Assembly (NCBI GenBank): GCA_018902915.1
Contig: JAHIPS010000082.1
Coordinates: 1-51,172, forward strand
Source of the DNA: Candidatus Omnitrophota bacterium
GTDB lineage: Bacteria > Omnitrophota > Gorgyraeia > Gorgyraeales > Gorgyraeaceae
Length of the DNA stretch: 51,172 nucleotides
Direction of reading: 5' to 3'
Shown here: positions 9,076 to 47,210 of the stretch, piece by piece
Layout: the number at the start of each line of letters is the position of its first letter
Numbering within the stretch: position 1 is the stretch's first letter
Made by a program: the position numbers and the translations under genes
The notes under the pieces: model-generated
Database searches by the model: none
What the model saw: only the letters and a program-made list of their open reading frames with translations
What the model was told of the DNA's origin: nothing

Positions 9076-10077
9076 ATGCATTGGGGCGCGCCAATATATT
9101 TAAATTTCCTTCTACTTATTCCCGCGTTAATAATATTTTTTATCATTGTCTCTATCAGGAAAAACAGGGCCATCGGGGTATTTGGAAACAAGGCCCTGAT
9201 GGAGAAACTTTCTCTATCAAAGAGCGCGGCAAAAGAAAAGACAAAGAGGATTTTAATCATAATAGGCGCCATTTTCCTGATCCTGGCGCTTGCGAGGCCA
9301 CAGATAGGCACGAGACTTGCCATGACAAAACGCAGCGGAGTGGATGTCCTGATAGCAATAGATACTTCGACGAGCATGATGGCCCAGGATATAAAACCAA
9401 ATCGTTTGGAAAAGGCAAAGCTGGAGGTGGCCTCGCTTATAGATAAATTAAAAGGGGACAGGGTCGGCATCCTGACATTCGCGGGCAATAGTTTTGTCCA
9501 GTGCCCCCTCACGCTTGATTACAACGCGGCCAAGATGTTTTTAAGCATCGTAGAGACAGGCATGATGCCCAAGCCAGGAACAGCCATAGGCGACGCAATA
9601 GAGAGGGCCGCGAAATCCTTTGTTAAAAAACAGAGAAAACACAAGGTCCTGGTCCTTTTGACAGACGGCGAAGACCACGAGCAGGATCCTGTAAAGGCTG
9701 CAAAAGAGGCAAAGAAAGAGGGTATAAGGATCTATACAATAGGCATTGGCAGTAAACATGGCGAGCCCATACCTATTATGGATGAATCAGGCAATGTCTC
9801 GGGGTATAAAAAGGATTCTAGCGGCGAGGTGGTAATGTCAAGACTCGATGATGAGACGCTTCAGAGGATAGCCTTTATTACAGACGGGAAATATTATAAT
9901 GCCACGCCAGGCGAATTTGAGCTGGACAGTATCTATGACGAGATACAGGGGATGGAGAAAAAAGAACTCTCGAGCAGGTTATTTATGCAGTACGAGGAGA
10001 GGTTCCAGTATTTTCTCGGCATAGCCCTGGCGCTATTGTGTATTGAACTTGTAATCGGAGACAGGAAGAGAACATGA
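9076..10077 (+). CDS. batB: BatB-like VWA membrane protein
   Basis: 333 residues, same layout as BatA: membrane helices at about 8-26 and 57-75, VWA domain with MIDAS AIDTSTSMMAQD, and a C-terminal helix near 312-328. GAGGTAG lies ahead of the ATG. The two paralogues lie 8 nt apart, evidence of tandem duplication. The last 4 nt overlap batC (ATGA). Confidence 0.88.
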   Translation: MHWGAPIYLNFLLLIPALIIFFIIVSIRKNRAIGVFGNKALMEKLSLSKSAAKEKTKRILIIIGAIFLILALARPQIGTRLAMTKRSGVDVLIAIDTSTSMMAQDIKPNRLEKAKLEVASLIDKLKGDRVGILTFAGNSFVQCPLTLDYNAAKMFLSIVETGMMPKPGTAIGDAIERAAKSFVKKQRKHKVLVLLTDGEDHEQDPVKAAKEAKKEGIRIYTIGIGSKHGEPIPIMDESGNVSGYKKDSSGEVVMSRLDDETLQRIAFITDGKYYNATPGEFELDSIYDEIQGMEKKELSSRLFMQYEERFQYFLGIALALLCIELVIGDRKRT

Positions 10078-10895
10078 GACTTACGATTGTTCACTGTTCA
10101 AGGCTAAGCCTTGAACAGGGAAATGTTCAAGGCTTAGCCTTGAACAGGAGACTGGCCCGGGCACTTGCAATTCTATTGGTTTGTTTTTTTACCATAGGCT
10201 GGATATGGAATTCTGTTGCGACAAAGGATAAAGAGGCGAGGAAGCTGTATGAGGAGGGAAATCTCGACGATGCATTGGCAAAATGGCGCGACGCGCAGAT
10301 CGACGAGCCTGATAAGAAGGAGCTGCATTATAATATAGGCAATGCATTGTATGAGAAAAGCGAGTATGAGGACGCGTTTAGCGAATACCAGAAATTAATT
10401 GATTCAAAAGATGATGAACTTCGGGCAAAAACATATTATAATATTGGAAACACGCATTACAGGATGGGGAAACTGCCTGAGGCAATAGAGGATTATGAAA
10501 AAGGCCTTGAGATAACGCCTGATGACGAGGACGCGAAGTACAATATAGAGTTTATCAAGAAATTATTAGAAGAGCAGGAAAAGCAGCAATCAACGAGTAA
10601 AGAAGAGCAGGAAGAAAAGAAAGAAGAGGAAGAACAGGAACAGCAGGCGCAGCAGGAGCAACAAGATAAATCTAGCGGAGAGCAAAGACAGGAAGAAAAA
10701 CAGGAAGAATCTGGAAAAGAGGAAAGAGAAGAAAGGCAAGAGGCAAAGAAAGATAAGACAAGCGACGAAAAGGAGATGTCAGAAGAAGACGCTGTTCGCC
10801 TGCTCGACGCTTTAAAGGATGACGAAAAAGAGCTGCAAAAAGAACTAAGGATGCAGCCTATCGAGGGTAGGTATAGAGTAGAAAAAGACTGGTAG
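10074..10895 (+). CDS. batC: BatC-like TPR protein with palindrome-encoded N-terminus
   Basis: 273 residues. A membrane helix (about 30-48) anchors two to three TPR units (about 56-160: KLYEEGNLDDALAKW, HYNIGNALYEKSEYEDAF, YYNIGNTHYRMGKLPEAIEDY), followed by a very charged Glu/Gln/Lys tail and a conserved end MSEEDAVRLLDALKDDEKE. Residues about 8-25, before the membrane helix, are encoded by a 52-bp double palindrome (10095-10146) and have no expected counterpart in the family. The start is fixed by the ATGA overlap with batB; a TTG at 10140, just past the element, is an alternative. TPR proteins of this operon are thought to hold the Bat complex together. Confidence 0.85.
   Translation: MRLTIVHCSRLSLEQGNVQGLALNRRLARALAILLVCFFTIGWIWNSVATKDKEARKLYEEGNLDDALAKWRDAQIDEPDKKELHYNIGNALYEKSEYEDAFSEYQKLIDSKDDELRAKTYYNIGNTHYRMGKLPEAIEDYEKGLEITPDDEDAKYNIEFIKKLLEEQEKQQSTSKEEQEEKKEEEEQEQQAQQEQQDKSSGEQRQEEKQEESGKEEREERQEAKKDKTSDEKEMSEEDAVRLLDALKDDEKELQKELRMQPIEGRYRVEKDW
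10095..10146. repeat. Double palindrome (23-6-23), copy in batC
   Basis: Two 23-bp palindromes (10095-10117 and 10124-10146), each with 10-bp arms TGTTCAAGGC/GCCTTGAACA and a 3-nt loop (TAA, then TTA), are exact reverse complements of each other across a 6-bp spacer. The element at 47145-47196 has the same architecture and differs by one base pair per arm. Here it lies inside coding sequence. Confidence 0.9.
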
Positions 10896-10898
10896 GAT

Positions 10899-12797
10899 AT
10901 GAAAAAGTTTTTATTTACGGTTTTATTTTTGTGCATGGCAGGTGTTTTATACGGCCAGGATATCTCTATCGAGGCCGGAGTTGACAGGCAGGAGATCTCA
11001 CTGGACGAGCAGATCACGCTTACCATAGTAGTGAGCGGCAATGTGTCCAATATCCCGCAGCCTACTGTGCCGAACATGGACGGGTTTACAGCGTATTCTT
11101 CCGGCAGGTCCCAGAATATCTCGATAATAAACGGCCAGTTTACAAGCTCTGTAACCTTTACATATATACTCGTGCCCAATGACGAAGGTGAATATACCCT
11201 GGGGCCGTTCAGCATTGATTACAAAGGCAATACCTATTCGGCAGACGCGATCAATATAAAGGTTTCGCCGCGCTCTAGCGCGCAGCCTTCTGCGCCGTCC
11301 TACGCTGCGCCAGACAAATACGAGAGCGGGGCAGCGCCGGGCGCCGGGCAACATAAAGAATTATTTATAGAGACGTACGTTGATAAGCTCAGGGCATATG
11401 TAAACGAGCAGGTAACCCTGACGTTCGCGTTTTACCAGGCAGTAAATCTGTTTGAAAACCCTGTCTATAGCGCGCCTTCCACGACCGGCTTCTGGACAGA
11501 AGATATGCCGCCCCAGAAAAAATATTATAAGGTCATAGACGGCGTGAAGTATCTCGTGACCGAGATAAAGACAGCGCTTTTCGCGACCAGCCCAGGCGAA
11601 TTTATAGTAGGCCAGGCAAGGCTTGAGGCAAGCGTTGAAGACCTGGAGAGATTTTCTTCGCGCAGCCCTTTTGATATCTTTGACAGGGACCCGTTCAGCA
11701 TGTTTAGAAGGGGAAAACCCATAATTCTTACAACAGACCCCATAACGCTCGAGATCCTGCCTTTGCCGGAAGAGGGTAGGCCCGAAAATTTCAAAGGCGA
11801 TGTAGGAAGTTTTGATATTTCTTCCGAGATAGACAAGGACAAGGTCGAGGAAAACCAGCCTGTAAACCTGAAGATAGCCATAAAGGGAAAAGGCAACATA
11901 AAGACGATCTCTTCTCCTGATATCCCTGAACCGCCTGATGTAAAGTTTTATGATTCCGCGAGCTCTGAAAATATATCCAAACTGGATTATGTTGTACAGG
12001 GGGAAAAGATATTTGAAAAGGTCATTATACCTAAGCGCGCCGGTAGCTTTACGCTCGGTCCTGTAGAATATTCTTATTTTGATCCACAGGAGGAGACCTA
12101 CATAGAAAAAAGGATCTCGCCGATAGAAATACAGGCCACAGAATCAGATGAAGAGGCCCCTGTCGAGGTCCCGCTCTCAATACCAGGCCTCACAAAGGAA
12201 GAGATAAGACTCCTTAAAAAAGACATATGTCATATAAAAGGCGCGCTGCCAGATTTAGGAGCCAGGGATAATTTCCTGTATAAAAATAAGATGTTTCTCT
12301 TATCTCTTATTATACCGCTCGCCCTTTTAGTATTCCTTTATATATACGAACTTCACAGGCAAAAACTGATGACAGATATCGGATACGCCCGTTCCCGTCG
12401 CGCAAGAGGCGCTGCTTCAAAACGTCTTAAAAAGGCGAGGGGCGTGATGTCAAAGGGCGACGTAAAAGGATTTTATGCCGAGATATACAAAGCAGCGATA
12501 GAATATATAGCCGATAAATTAAATATCCCGCATCCATCCATAACAAAAGACATATTAGAAGAGAGATTAAAAGAAAAAGATATATCCGCGGAGCTTATAG
12601 AAAAATTAAAGGAGCTATTTGATATCTGCGACATGGCCAGGTTTGCCCCGTCCGAAGTCCGCACTAAAGGTGCGGCACTCATCTCTGGCGACTCACTTCA
12701 GACGGGGTATACTTCAGGCAGATTTACCGAAGAGGATATGAAGAAGTCGATCGAGGAGGCAGCCGATATCATCGCGGGCCTTGAGAGGATAGGATGA
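10899..12797 (+). CDS. batD: BatD-like exported protein with in-frame palindrome insertion
   Basis: 632 residues. Signal peptide (MKKFLFTVLFLCMAGVLYG), then repeated Ig-like BatD domains, with ISIEAGVDRQEISLDEQITLTI-type openings at about 22 and VEENQPVNLKIAIKGKGNI near 317. One membrane helix near 465-485 leads to a cytoplasmic domain related to the DUF4381 protein. In that domain, between MARFAPSE and FTEEDMKKSIEEAADII, about 22 extra residues (about 584-605) are encoded by a palindromic element. The frame stays open, so the gene appears functional. It overlaps batE by 4 nt. Confidence 0.85.
   Translation: MKKFLFTVLFLCMAGVLYGQDISIEAGVDRQEISLDEQITLTIVVSGNVSNIPQPTVPNMDGFTAYSSGRSQNISIINGQFTSSVTFTYILVPNDEGEYTLGPFSIDYKGNTYSADAINIKVSPRSSAQPSAPSYAAPDKYESGAAPGAGQHKELFIETYVDKLRAYVNEQVTLTFAFYQAVNLFENPVYSAPSTTGFWTEDMPPQKKYYKVIDGVKYLVTEIKTALFATSPGEFIVGQARLEASVEDLERFSSRSPFDIFDRDPFSMFRRGKPIILTTDPITLEILPLPEEGRPENFKGDVGSFDISSEIDKDKVEENQPVNLKIAIKGKGNIKTISSPDIPEPPDVKFYDSASSENISKLDYVVQGEKIFEKVIIPKRAGSFTLGPVEYSYFDPQEETYIEKRISPIEIQATESDEEAPVEVPLSIPGLTKEEIRLLKKDICHIKGALPDLGARDNFLYKNKMFLLSLIIPLALLVFLYIYELHRQKLMTDIGYARSRRARGAASKRLKKARGVMSKGDVKGFYAEIYKAAIEYIADKLNIPHPSITKDILEERLKEKDISAELIEKLKELFDICDMARFAPSEVRTKGAALISGDSLQTGYTSGRFTEEDMKKSIEEAADIIAGLERIG
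12646..12707. repeat. Palindromic element inside batD
   Basis: CCCCGTCCGAAGT (12646-12658) pairs with ACTTCAGACGGGG (12695-12707) with one mismatch, and an inner stem CCGCAC/GTGCGG lies at 12659-12664/12670-12675. The element codes for most of the extra residues of BatD. Confidence 0.8.
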
Positions 12798-30630: not shown

Positions 30631-30732
30631 GCCCCGTTCCAAATTCTAATCGATAATCGATTTATCGTTTGTAGCTGATTGCGTACAACTCTCATATATC
30701 ATTTACCGATACTTAAGAATTTGGAACGGGGC
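30631..30732. repeat. MITE-like terminal-inverted-repeat element, copy 2
   Basis: 17-bp exact terminal inverted repeats (30631-30647/30716-30732) identical to those of copy 1 at 532-634. The interior differs from copy 1 by a handful of substitutions and one deletion (for example CGATAATCGATTTATCG versus CGATTATCGATTTACTA). Confidence 0.88.
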
Positions 30733-42902: not shown

Positions 42903-44081
42903 ATGGATTTCGACTCAATGTTACAGAAGGAACTGGGCGAGCTGAAAAGCAAAGGGCTTTTCAGGGAGATGAAAGAGATCAGCGGAATGCAGGGTCCTTT
43001 AGTAGTGATTGATAATAGAGAAGTAATCCTTCTTTCCTCTAATAATTATTTAGGGCTGGCCTCTCATCCTGAAGTGATCAAGGCGCAGATAGAAGCTGCA
43101 AAAGAATTTGGCGCAGGCGCGTCTGCCTCCCGTCTTATTTCAGGTAATATGATTTTGCATGAAAGATTAGAGAAAAAAATAGCTGATTTTAAGGGTACCG
43201 AGGCCGCGATTATTTTTACCACAGGATACATGGCGAATATCGGGACCATAAGCGCGCTTATGGGAGAAAAGGATCTTGTGATCTGTGATAAATTAAACCA
43301 TGCCAGTATTATAGATGGTGTACGTCTGAGCGGCGCGGCATTGAGGACATATCCTCACAAGAATGTCGAAAGGTTAGAGGATATTTTAAAAAAAGAGATT
43401 TCGTATAAAAAGAAACTCATTGTCACCGACGGTGTTTTCAGTATGGATGGCGACGTAGCGCCTTTGTCTGAGCTCGTAAGGATTGCGGAAACCTACGATG
43501 CTATTTTGATGCTGGACGACGCGCACGCAACAGGCGTTATTGGAAAAAACGGAAAGGGCACGTGTGAGCATTTTGGAATAAAAGAGGGTGTTCATGTGCA
43601 GATGGGGACATTCAGCAAGGCACTGGGAAATCTGGGAGGATTCGTAGCCGGCTCAAAGGTCTTGATCGATTACATTCGCAACAAGGCCAGGTCTTTTATA
43701 TATTCAACTGCCCTGCCGCCTGCAATAGTCGGTGGCTGTATAAAGGCTATCGAGATAATAGAAAAAGATAATAGCTTAAGGGAGAAACTCTGGTCTAATG
43801 TCGCAAGATTCCGCGACGCGCTATTAAAATTAGATTTTAATATTATGGAGACAGAGTCGCAGATAATCCCGATACGCACGCGAGATGCCTCTTTGACCAT
43901 GAAGTCAGCTGAATTTTTACTGAAAAATGGAATATTTGCGCCGGGCATAAGACCGCCAACAGTGCCAAAGGCAAAATGCAGGATCCGCGCATCACTGATG
44001 GCCACGCATACCGATGAGCATATTGATAAAGCAGTAGAGGTATTTAAGAGGTTAAAAAGTGAACCCCATTCCAAATTTTAA
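42903..44081 (+). CDS. bioF: 8-amino-7-oxononanoate synthase
   Basis: 392 residues of the PLP-dependent alpha-oxoamine synthase family: SNNYLGLASHPEV, GAGASASRLISGN, MLDDAHATGV and the PLP lysine Lys239 in FSKALGNLGGF. It condenses pimeloyl-thioester with alanine. The related 2-amino-3-ketobutyrate ligase is an alternative by sequence alone, but the biotin neighbours decide. The last few residues (HSKF) and the stop are encoded by the left end of a terminal-inverted-repeat element starting at 44064. Confidence 0.93.
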   Translation: MDFDSMLQKELGELKSKGLFREMKEISGMQGPLVVIDNREVILLSSNNYLGLASHPEVIKAQIEAAKEFGAGASASRLISGNMILHERLEKKIADFKGTEAAIIFTTGYMANIGTISALMGEKDLVICDKLNHASIIDGVRLSGAALRTYPHKNVERLEDILKKEISYKKKLIVTDGVFSMDGDVAPLSELVRIAETYDAILMLDDAHATGVIGKNGKGTCEHFGIKEGVHVQMGTFSKALGNLGGFVAGSKVLIDYIRNKARSFIYSTALPPAIVGGCIKAIEIIEKDNSLREKLWSNVARFRDALLKLDFNIMETESQIIPIRTRDASLTMKSAEFLLKNGIFAPGIRPPTVPKAKCRIRASLMATHTDEHIDKAVEVFKRLKSEPHSKF

Positions 44082-44166
44082 AGGATTCTTATATATTTGG
44101 AAGGATTGATAATGAAAAAGAATCGTAGTAATATTATGCGTTACTATCCAAAAATTTGGAACGGGG
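44064..44166. repeat. MITE-like element, copy 3, joining bioF and bioD
   Basis: CCCCATTCCAAATTTT (44064-44079) is inverted at 44151-44166 with one mismatch. Length (103 bp) and ends match copies 1 and 2, but the interior is unrelated. It holds the bioF stop, the bioD ribosome-binding site GGAAGGA (44099-44105), the bioD ATG (44112) and its first 18 codons. Confidence 0.75.
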
Positions 44167-44783
44167 CAAGGGGATTTTTTGTAACAGGAACTGACACAGG
44201 CGTTGGAAAGACTGAAGTCGCAGCCTATCTGGCAGAGAGTTTTTCCAAAAAAGGTTTCAAGGTAGGCACGATGAAACCTATTGCGACAGGTAGCTCTAAG
44301 GATGCGAGGATCCTAAAGGCAGACCCGGTGATTTCGTTTAGGTTACCCTTGGCGCCGTTGGTAGCAGGTAAGGTAAATAAAGGGAGGATATGGCAGGCCT
44401 TTGAGAAACTAAAGGCCAATAGCGATATCGTTATTGTGGAGGGCATTGGCGGCGTGATGGTGCCAATATCTGGAAAAGGCAAAAAGGCGTTTTATGTTTC
44501 AAATATGATTTCAAAGATGAACCTCCCAGCTATTATAGTAGCAAGGCCAAATTCAGGCACTATAAACCATACTTTAATGACTATAGAAGTGCTCCGAAGA
44601 AAAAAGATTAAAATAGCTGGTATTATATTTAATCACTCCTCCCGCGTAAAAAACGATATTTCAATAAAGACAAATCCCGGGATAATCCAGGGGCTTTCCG
44701 GGGTTAAGACCCTGGGTGTCATGCATTATAACAAAAACAGGAGCAAAAGGAGGATGAAATGGTTAAAGAGAATCGAATTTTAA
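44112..44783 (+). CDS. bioD: Dethiobiotin synthetase
   Basis: 223 residues from the ATG at 44112, 6 nt after GGAAGGA; an in-frame TTG at 44097 would add five residues and lacks a ribosome-binding site. The P-loop GTDTGVGKTE, IVEGIGGVMVPI and the late NHSSR region identify BioD. The family normally starts 3-5 residues before GFFVTGTDTG; here about 18 extra residues (MKKNRSNIMRYYPKIWNG) are encoded by the inserted repeat. It overlaps the next gene by 25 nt. Confidence 0.92.
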   Translation: MKKNRSNIMRYYPKIWNGARGFFVTGTDTGVGKTEVAAYLAESFSKKGFKVGTMKPIATGSSKDARILKADPVISFRLPLAPLVAGKVNKGRIWQAFEKLKANSDIVIVEGIGGVMVPISGKGKKAFYVSNMISKMNLPAIIVARPNSGTINHTLMTIEVLRRKKIKIAGIIFNHSSRVKNDISIKTNPGIIQGLSGVKTLGVMHYNKNRSKRRMKWLKRIEF

Positions 44784-46071: not shown

Positions 46072-47157
46072 ATGAATGATATTCTTGCCTTAGGGGCGCA
46101 GTCTAAAAGCAGCTTTTGTTTTGTTAAATCCGGAGGCTTTCATATTTCGGATTACAGCGGAGACCTGGGCGACATACATAATCTCAGGAATTTTGAGAGA
46201 GATATAAAAAAGATGCAAAAGAAACTCAAAGTCACGCCGGGTATTATCGCCTGCGATTTGCACCCTGAATATATTTCAAGTAAGTTAGCAGCAGAGTGGC
46301 TCAAGGTCCGAGGCTCGAGGCTCAAGGCAATCCAGCACCATAAAGCGCATGTGGCAAGTTGTATATTTGACAATGACGTCGAAGGTAAAGTAATAGGTAT
46401 AGCATTTGACGGCACAGGGTATGGCCTGGACGGGAATATCTGGGGAGGCGAGTTTTTTGTAGGCACTCTTAAAGGGCTGAGGAGAGTCGCGTATTTAAAA
46501 TATATTCCTATGCCTGGGGGAGAGACAGCTGTTCGCGAGCCATGGCGCATGGCGCTGAGCTATCTCTATAATATATATGGAAAGAGTTTTAATTTTGCCA
46601 GGATGGATAAGCAGAAGGCCAGACTTCTTACCCAGATGATAGATAAGGGCATAAATTCGCCTTTGACATCAAGCATGGGCAGGCTTTTTGACGCGGTTTC
46701 AGCGCTTACAGGGATTTGTCATGTAGCAAAATACGAAGGACAGGCAGCAATTGAGTTAGAAAGAGCTATCAGCTATCAGCCATCAGCTTTCAGCTTAAAT
46801 AATGGATATAATTTTAGCTATTTTAACGATAAAGGCTTAGTTATAGTAGATTGGGCGCCGGTTATTAAAGGCATAGTTAAGGATTTACAAGCCAAAAAGA
46901 CCAGGACAGAGATTTCAGTAAAGTTTCACAACGCGGTTTGTTATATGATAAGAGACGTGTGCAGGTTATTGAGAAAAAAATATAAAATAGACAAGGTCTG
47001 TATGAGCGGAGGCGTGTTTCAAAATAAGTTTCTTGCGACTCACGCAAAACCTCTTTTGGAAAAAGAAGATTTTAAAGTATATTTACACAAAAACCTGCCA
47101 GCCCACGACGGTAATATTGCATTGGGTCAGGCAATTTTAGCATCTGTCCAAGGCTAA
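46072..47157 (+). CDS. hypF: HypF C-terminal (carbamoyltransferase) half only
   Basis: 361 residues against about 750 for normal HypF. It begins exactly where the Kae1-like domain starts (ALGAQSKSSFCFVK) and contains GDLGDIHNL, DLHPEYISSKLA, the metal-site region HHKAH (about 89-93), FDGTGYGLDGNIWGGEF and SGGVFQNKFL. The acylphosphatase, zinc-finger and YrdC-like domains, which make carbamoyl-AMP, are missing. HypF loads carbamoyl onto HypE for the CN ligands of [NiFe] hydrogenase. Residues about 232-242 (SYQPSAFSL) come from a tandem heptamer repeat. The stop codon is in the loop of a palindrome. Confidence 0.85.
   Translation: MNDILALGAQSKSSFCFVKSGGFHISDYSGDLGDIHNLRNFERDIKKMQKKLKVTPGIIACDLHPEYISSKLAAEWLKVRGSRLKAIQHHKAHVASCIFDNDVEGKVIGIAFDGTGYGLDGNIWGGEFFVGTLKGLRRVAYLKYIPMPGGETAVREPWRMALSYLYNIYGKSFNFARMDKQKARLLTQMIDKGINSPLTSSMGRLFDAVSALTGICHVAKYEGQAAIELERAISYQPSAFSLNNGYNFSYFNDKGLVIVDWAPVIKGIVKDLQAKKTRTEISVKFHNAVCYMIRDVCRLLRKKYKIDKVCMSGGVFQNKFLATHAKPLLEKEDFKVYLHKNLPAHDGNIALGQAILASVQG
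46764..46796. repeat. Tandem heptamer AGCTATC repeat in hypF
   Basis: Four and a half 7-bp units (AGCTATC, AGCTATC, AGCCATC, AGCTTTC, AGCTT) lie in frame and encode SYQPSAFSL, which is not part of the conserved HypF domain. Confidence 0.8.
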
Positions 47158-47196
47158 GCCTTGGACAAAGCTTTGTCCAAGGCTTAGCCTTGGACA
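47145..47196. repeat. Double palindrome (23-6-23), copy at hypF-hypC
   Basis: Two 23-bp palindromes (47145-47167 and 47174-47196; arms TGTCCAAGGC/GCCTTGGACA) are reverse complements of each other across a 6-bp spacer, the same design as 10095-10146. The TAA loop of the first (47155-47157) is the hypF stop codon. The hypC ribosome-binding site AGGAG starts at the last base. Confidence 0.9.
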
Positions 47197-47210
47197 GGAG
47201 AAGCAGTGAT

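Follow-up and report, generated by a model that had tools for sequence, protein, structure and literature searches.

A mobile palindrome appears to supply the translation signals of bioD in the window, the 51,172-nucleotide stretch of DNA analyzed here: the sequence supports the conclusion that an inserted element now gives the gene its ribosome-binding site, its start codon and its first residues. Judged from the comparison of genomes, this bioD is one instance of a wide habit of start-codon insertion that extends over several phyla, whereas the first-pass annotation, although correct for bioD, had seen in it a single case. In the reading that we favor, with a probability of roughly 85%, a MITE-like element would have inserted into the bioD start at A^TGAR, the junction would have rebuilt a GTG, and such rebuilding of the interrupted signal would be a general habit. 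Its observed basis is the position of the element, its arms, its target repeats, the empty sites, and parallel insertions in other genes and other phyla.

The element at the bioF-bioD junction is a 103-bp palindrome at positions 44064-44166, with 16-bp inverted ends complementary at 15 of 16 positions (all features of this junction are on the forward strand); the coordinates given in the first-pass annotation are exact to the base. The left arm, CCCCATTCCAAATTTT (44064-44079), encodes the bioF C-terminus PHSKF; bioF spans 42903-44081, and its last codons, CCC CAT TCC AAA TTT TAA, with the stop codon at 44079-44081, fall inside the element. Downstream we read a Shine-Dalgarno-like GGAAGGA (44099-44105) 6 nt upstream of an in-frame bioD ATG (44112-44114), a second in-frame ATG (44136-44138), and the right arm, AAAATTTGGAACGGGG (44151-44166), which encodes KIWNG. 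The element-coded BioD residues are MKKNRSNIMRYYPKIWNG, and the reading enters the conserved FFVTGTDTGVGKT directly after the right arm. The earlier claim that the end and stop of bioF, GGAAGGA, ATG 44112 and 18 BioD residues are encoded by the element is confirmed on the sequence.

The element is flanked by TGAA (44060-44063), the left target repeat, in the region of the old start codon, and by CAAG (44167-44170), a decayed right target repeat. The present mismatch of the two (TGAA/CAAG) counts against the reading of a MITE-like start-codon insertion. The old bioD ATG is now GTG (44059-44061), and the codon at the right-hand junction (44166-44168), a start codon that has apparently decayed, is GCA. 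In the window sequence no in-frame ATG, GTG or TTG occurs between the right arm and FFVTGTDTGVGKT, so that, rarer start codons aside, bioD starts within the element; with the junction codon changed from GTG to GCA, BioD translation must begin there. The alignment to the BioD family model TIGR00347 starts at ORF residue 23.

We found BioD in 13 of the 19 genomes of the family. In G003 and G006 there is no element: bioD starts ATGAAGGGATT.. (MKGFFVTG) and overlaps the end of bioF, and G002 likewise has a junction without the element at which bioD overlaps the bioF end. In agreement with the first-pass annotation, element-free relatives lack the extra N-terminal residues and start straight at (M)KGFFVTG. 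In G001 the contig end beside bioD (L054, end of C45) carries adapter-like sequence, an assembly artefact, and for this reason the bioD start is unreadable. Only in one relative, G004 (MRYSPKIWNGVRG), do the N-terminal residues recur, and there the inverted repeats are present as well: this genome, from another genus of the same family, carries an element at the same place in bioD, between two TGAG repeats. Neither of the two observations that the first-pass annotation had named as refuting was therefore made. Its junction reads GGATGAG, then CCCC..GGGG for the element, then TGAGGGGATTTTTTGTAACA (the right-hand side also given as TGAGGGGATTTTTTG), and GTG AGG GGA TTT at the junction supplies a start that keeps the original frame. 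This A^TGAG layout indicates that the insertion split an old start, ATGAGG, behind its first A and left a 4-bp target duplication, TGAG. The right-hand TGAG and the junction GTG of G004 correspond to CAAG and GCA in the window. G004 keeps the second ATG (window 44136) as well as the junction GTG, and has no equivalent of ATG 44112. The proposal that the element acts as the bioD translation signal probably stands as regards a start inside the element; the ATG used may be 44112 or 44136. In a comparison bearing on shared ancestry of the two insertions, the window bioD element is 74% identical to the G004 copy versus 78% to a copy on contig C48 of its own genome, and the BioD proteins lie at about equal distances.

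In genus g8, the start codon of another bioD holds an element of a different type (CCCCGCCC..GAGCGGGG): G007 and G013 have it, G009 has a variant, and in G018, G010, G011 and G016 the site is empty. In G013 an element copy also splits the start of a glycosyltransferase-like ORF.

Further copies with these ends exist in the window's genome (G000; 1.80 Mb in 128 contigs, 86% complete), where the two-end pattern finds 16 copies versus 0 for the reversed pattern. The two intergenic copies that had been reported to share the ends lie in the window at 533-633, with the target repeat CTCG on both sides, and at 30632-30731, without an exact target repeat (CGCG/CGAG). We read 24 distinct copies with their flanks: an exact 4-bp direct repeat is present in 14/24, and the position is at a gene start in just 2/24, a figure that counts against the favored reading. 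The copy closest to that of the window, on C48 (78-79% identical), splits the start of an ORF that is ABC-transporter permease-like, a label taken from its sequence only. There ATGAA precedes the element and TGAATAAATTAATG follows it; the junction GTG is kept and opens a 264-aa frame, and the ATG equivalent to 44136 is conserved.

Many G000 copies (~100 bp or 38-47 bp) lie in the centre of another palindrome, with TTGACAAA..CACG on one side of the element and CACG..TTTGTCAA on the other (L005, L007, L014, L016, L026, L037-L041, L044). A second palindromic repeat, CAAGGCTAAGCCTTG, occurs in the window at 467-491, 10093-10151 and 47143-47201, paired at the latter two sites, both of which end in AGGAGA. 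The stop codon of ORF 46072-47157 falls within it, and it overlaps ORF 10074-10895 at the first codons; this repeat, too, may provide gene ends and ribosome-binding sites. At 12646-12707 the window has a 62-bp inverted repeat, CCCCG..CGGGG, whose sequence differs and which shows no obvious target repeat.

How can a gene survive the interruption of its own start codon? The junctions suggest an answer. A non-autonomous, MITE-like palindromic mobile element would have entered the ancestral bioD start codon at A^TGAR and duplicated 4 bp (TGAR); since the element ends in ..CGGGG, its last G and the following TG would have formed a GTG that again opened the old reading frame, and bioD would have survived because this junction GTG restored the start. 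Later, in the window lineage, the junction GTG would have been lost (GCA) and initiation would have moved to ATG 44112, with GGAAGGA, or to ATG 44136, so that BioD gained 18 or 10 element-coded residues, respectively. The target is probably a loose TNNA (YNNR), and elements are found where the duplicated bases and terminal G's would rebuild the interrupted signal: mainly at start codons and, in two Patescibacteria, at -35 boxes and some -10 boxes. The target repeat has T..A at its outer positions in 87-97% of cases, and the bases on either side of it show no consensus. A TNNA/YNNR tetramer is present in start codons that continue with AR, in the -35 box (TTGA) and in the -10 box (TATA, TAAA); in each of these the right-hand repeat copy together with the element's terminal G's leaves the interrupted signal whole.

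We followed the leader from the old ATG in the start-codon elements of all loci collected, 159 in number. It ends ahead of the GTG in 74 and at an overlapping TGA (GTGA) in 26; 44 leaders are fused in frame, 12 are in frame with a stop, and 3 continue out of frame. These fates (TGA, TAA or fusion, according to frame) follow from the GGGG-TGA junction and the TCTAACGGGG arm. A Shine-Dalgarno-like string lies near the GTG in 64/159 of these elements and is absent from 95/159, which counts against the favored reading. So does the pairing of the ribosome-binding site in the predicted mRNA hairpins, with a mean unpaired probability of about 0.1-0.26; buried in this way, the site would leave GTG initiation dependent, as we assume, on coupling to translation from the old start. 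A decoy third arm that frees the ribosome-binding site was considered and dropped, since computed access was not consistently higher with it; partial third arms are present in 7/27 G032 elements and 7/26 class loci, with other counts of 21/64 and 3/12.

Start-codon insertion is widespread in the class: the pattern ATGAR-CCCC..GGGG-TGAR matches 81/384 genomes, with at least one reversed-control match, in G025. Elements longer than ~90 bp escape it, among them the two start-codon copies of G000. We selected G032 for having the most pattern matches (40), a choice biased toward start-codon copies. There, an arms-only search blind to the flanks gave 70 elements; 50 of the 70 were listed and, with tandem copies merged, yielded 42 loci. 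By a strict rule 34/42 loci are at start codons, and 36/42 after two were read by hand (a GTG-start copy and the degenerate C48:46137). In the other 6/42 the target repeat is TAAA, TAAG, CGAG or CGAA or, in one case, a decayed sequence. Within 253 kb of G032 (four contigs, whole or nearly so), 13/16 entries are at starts by rule, or 14/15 loci after one tandem is merged and the degenerate copy is read; this region has 219 crudely called genes, 19.2 kb of intergenic DNA and 256 non-start intergenic TGAR sites. The genes with start-codon elements in G032 include ribBA, truB, purA, leuD, rplR and mtaB, and alignments to the NCBIfam models RibBA, TruB, PurA, IlvE, LeuD, L18 and MtaB begin at residue 1-7 of GTG-started ORFs. 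In G064 the purA start is uninterrupted (ATGAATGTAGTC..), an empty site. Exact repeats flank 42 G032 elements; for 15 of them a copy of at least 92% identity exists, and 15/15 of these are at ATG or GTG, versus 22/27 of the elements that have no such copy.

Beyond the class, a strict pattern (CCCCGTTAGA..TCTAACGGGG in ATGAR/TGAR) occurs in at least 118 stretches of a one-genome-per-species collection. The hosts among the 80 matches listed are Omnitrophota, many Patescibacteria, Planctomycetota, Nitrospinota, Nitrospirota, Elusimicrobia, Cloacimonadota, WOR-3 and single proteobacterial records; Rickettsia is not among them. Among 80 elements listed with such a pattern, several precede frames of fewer than 20 codons, so not all are gene starts. 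Viral contigs gave 0 matches. Flank-blind searches in two Patescibacteria gave 50 elements in the Nealsonbacteria genome G388 (11 at starts, 18 in frame in ORFs (NPVR..SNG), 21 other) and 19 in the Kaiserbacteria genome G385 (11 at starts, 1 in frame, 7 other), where one or two of the start calls depend on TTG or GTG. The exact 4-bp target repeat is present in 42/50 and 15/19, respectively. A TTGAC -35 box is the exact site of 11 of the 28 "other" copies in these two genomes, and TATAAT or TAAAAT that of 5. TTGAC makes up 0.5% (G388) and 0.4% (G385) of intergenic YNNR sites, versus 7/21 and 4/7 of the "other" insertions (p 1e-9 and 1e-7), and where -35 insertions were read by eye, a -10-like hexamer lies downstream at the usual spacing.

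The in-frame copies of G388 (L311-L350) are mostly a 59-bp class; 59 bp plus the 4-bp repeat is 63 bp, or 21 codons, so the frame is preserved on insertion. Type IV pilin-like leaders (L069, L071, L392, L398, L400) also contain in-frame elements, with a GFTLIEL-like cleavage motif rebuilt after the insert. As a general class, prepilin leader insertion was set aside as real but minor: it accounts for 2 cases (G007, G013) and 3/30 TTTA-type loci. The TTTA pattern itself matches 76/384 class genomes, with a few control matches, and 27/30 TTTA copies are outside any motif.

That an insertion took place at all is hardly in doubt. Chance inverted ends in an ordinary bioF-bioD spacer, with an extension native to BioD, would agree with the folding of the window junction RNA, which is not unusual (z -1.3) and is uninformative, and with the lack of an intact target repeat around the window copy; this account is already refuted by the genomic copies, by the empty sites in relatives and by the intact TGAG repeats of G004, and we give it almost no weight. 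More demanding is the question of why so many copies sit in expression signals. Filtering alone may be the cause: insertion would be random at TNNA, copies would survive where nothing breaks (starts, -35 boxes, in-frame or spacer sites), and those in starts and -35 boxes would be locked in because their deletion would kill the gene. The absence of a target consensus past the 4-bp repeat favors this account, as do insertions not confined to signals, namely the 18/50 in-frame copies of G388 and the 27/30 TTTA copies outside motifs; the last figure and the missing wider consensus together argue against a strict sequence target. However, under filtering alone plain intergenic sites should tolerate insertion at least equally, and in the 253 kb of G032, a genome chosen for its high start-codon count, the TGAR insertions comprise 14 loci at starts versus 0 elsewhere ((219/475)^14, ~2e-5). 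The TTGAC excess in the two Patescibacteria is also unexpected, and the near-identical, presumably young copies of G032 are all at starts, which is not so for the older ones. We rate filtering alone as a serious contender that falls somewhat short of even odds.

Positive selection offers another route to the same pattern: hosts would keep the elements for the strong ribosome-binding site of the right arm and for a hairpin through which translation is coupled or regulated. In many G032 copies the right arm indeed has GGAGG 9 nt upstream of the GTG, and the 64/159 elements with a Shine-Dalgarno-like string agree with this; but 95/159 have none, folding predicts that the hairpin buries the site, the decoy-arm comparison did not point to any opening of it by the element, and the genes entered are unrelated housekeeping genes, which makes such selection improbable. 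The excess over other tolerated sites points to some targeting or very strong retention; most G000 copies being away from gene starts also bears on the matter. A multi-phylum element system directed to start codons and -35/-10 boxes, whose end and 4-bp duplication regenerate the signal and make entry into essential genes nearly free of cost, is a proposal that we advance only tentatively, below even odds.

If the favored reading of a signal-rebuilding, MITE-like insertion is true, then transposons have made start codons and ribosome-binding sites in many housekeeping genes of uncultivated bacteria, and gene callers misplace starts in these genomes. It would also provide a natural case of neutral insertion into an essential gene, in which the junction rebuilds the signal. 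A question thereby becomes testable: does the transposase favor expression signals, or is selection acting on random insertions enough to sort them this sharply?

Bacterial MITEs are short, have terminal inverted repeats and a target site duplication, lack a gene of their own and occur in many copies. The elements described here are 29-103 bp long with complementary arms (reversed-pattern controls, 0), have target site duplications (14/24 in G000, 42/50 in G388, 15/19 in G385), and have empty sites (bioD in G003 and G006, purA in G064). Unlike MITEs in general, they occupy start codons and -35 boxes, where the signal is rebuilt, and they re-insert in tandem at the same TGAA. No partner transposase or autonomous relative was found among the element loci examined, which counts against the favored reading: each of 13 distant arm pairs proved to be two separate short elements, and no transposase was obvious by eye in the ORFs of two inter-arm stretches. 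REPs are described as extragenic and as carrying GTAG or CGTC tags (PMC3733652). Our elements resemble REPs and REPINs in being short palindromes of many copies, but have CCCC..GGGG ends and lie in many cases in coding sequence. The main text of a 2024 MITE review (PMC10969869) does not contain the term "start codon", and we found no description of start-codon insertion with a rebuilt GTG in the literature searched, which covered few subscription journals and no preprints. Rickettsia palindromic elements, palindromes some 100-150 bp long, occur as translated in-frame insertions within unrelated protein genes (PMC10969869, PMC2229807); the passages on them in these sources describe in-frame insertion and not start-codon insertion with a rebuilt GTG. 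The present elements are found in other hosts and are shorter, a comparison made by description, and they likewise have in-frame copies in unrelated protein genes (18/50 in G388, 1/19 in G385). Taken together, the anatomy of these elements appears MITE-like, while their habit seems closest to that of the Rickettsia palindromic elements.
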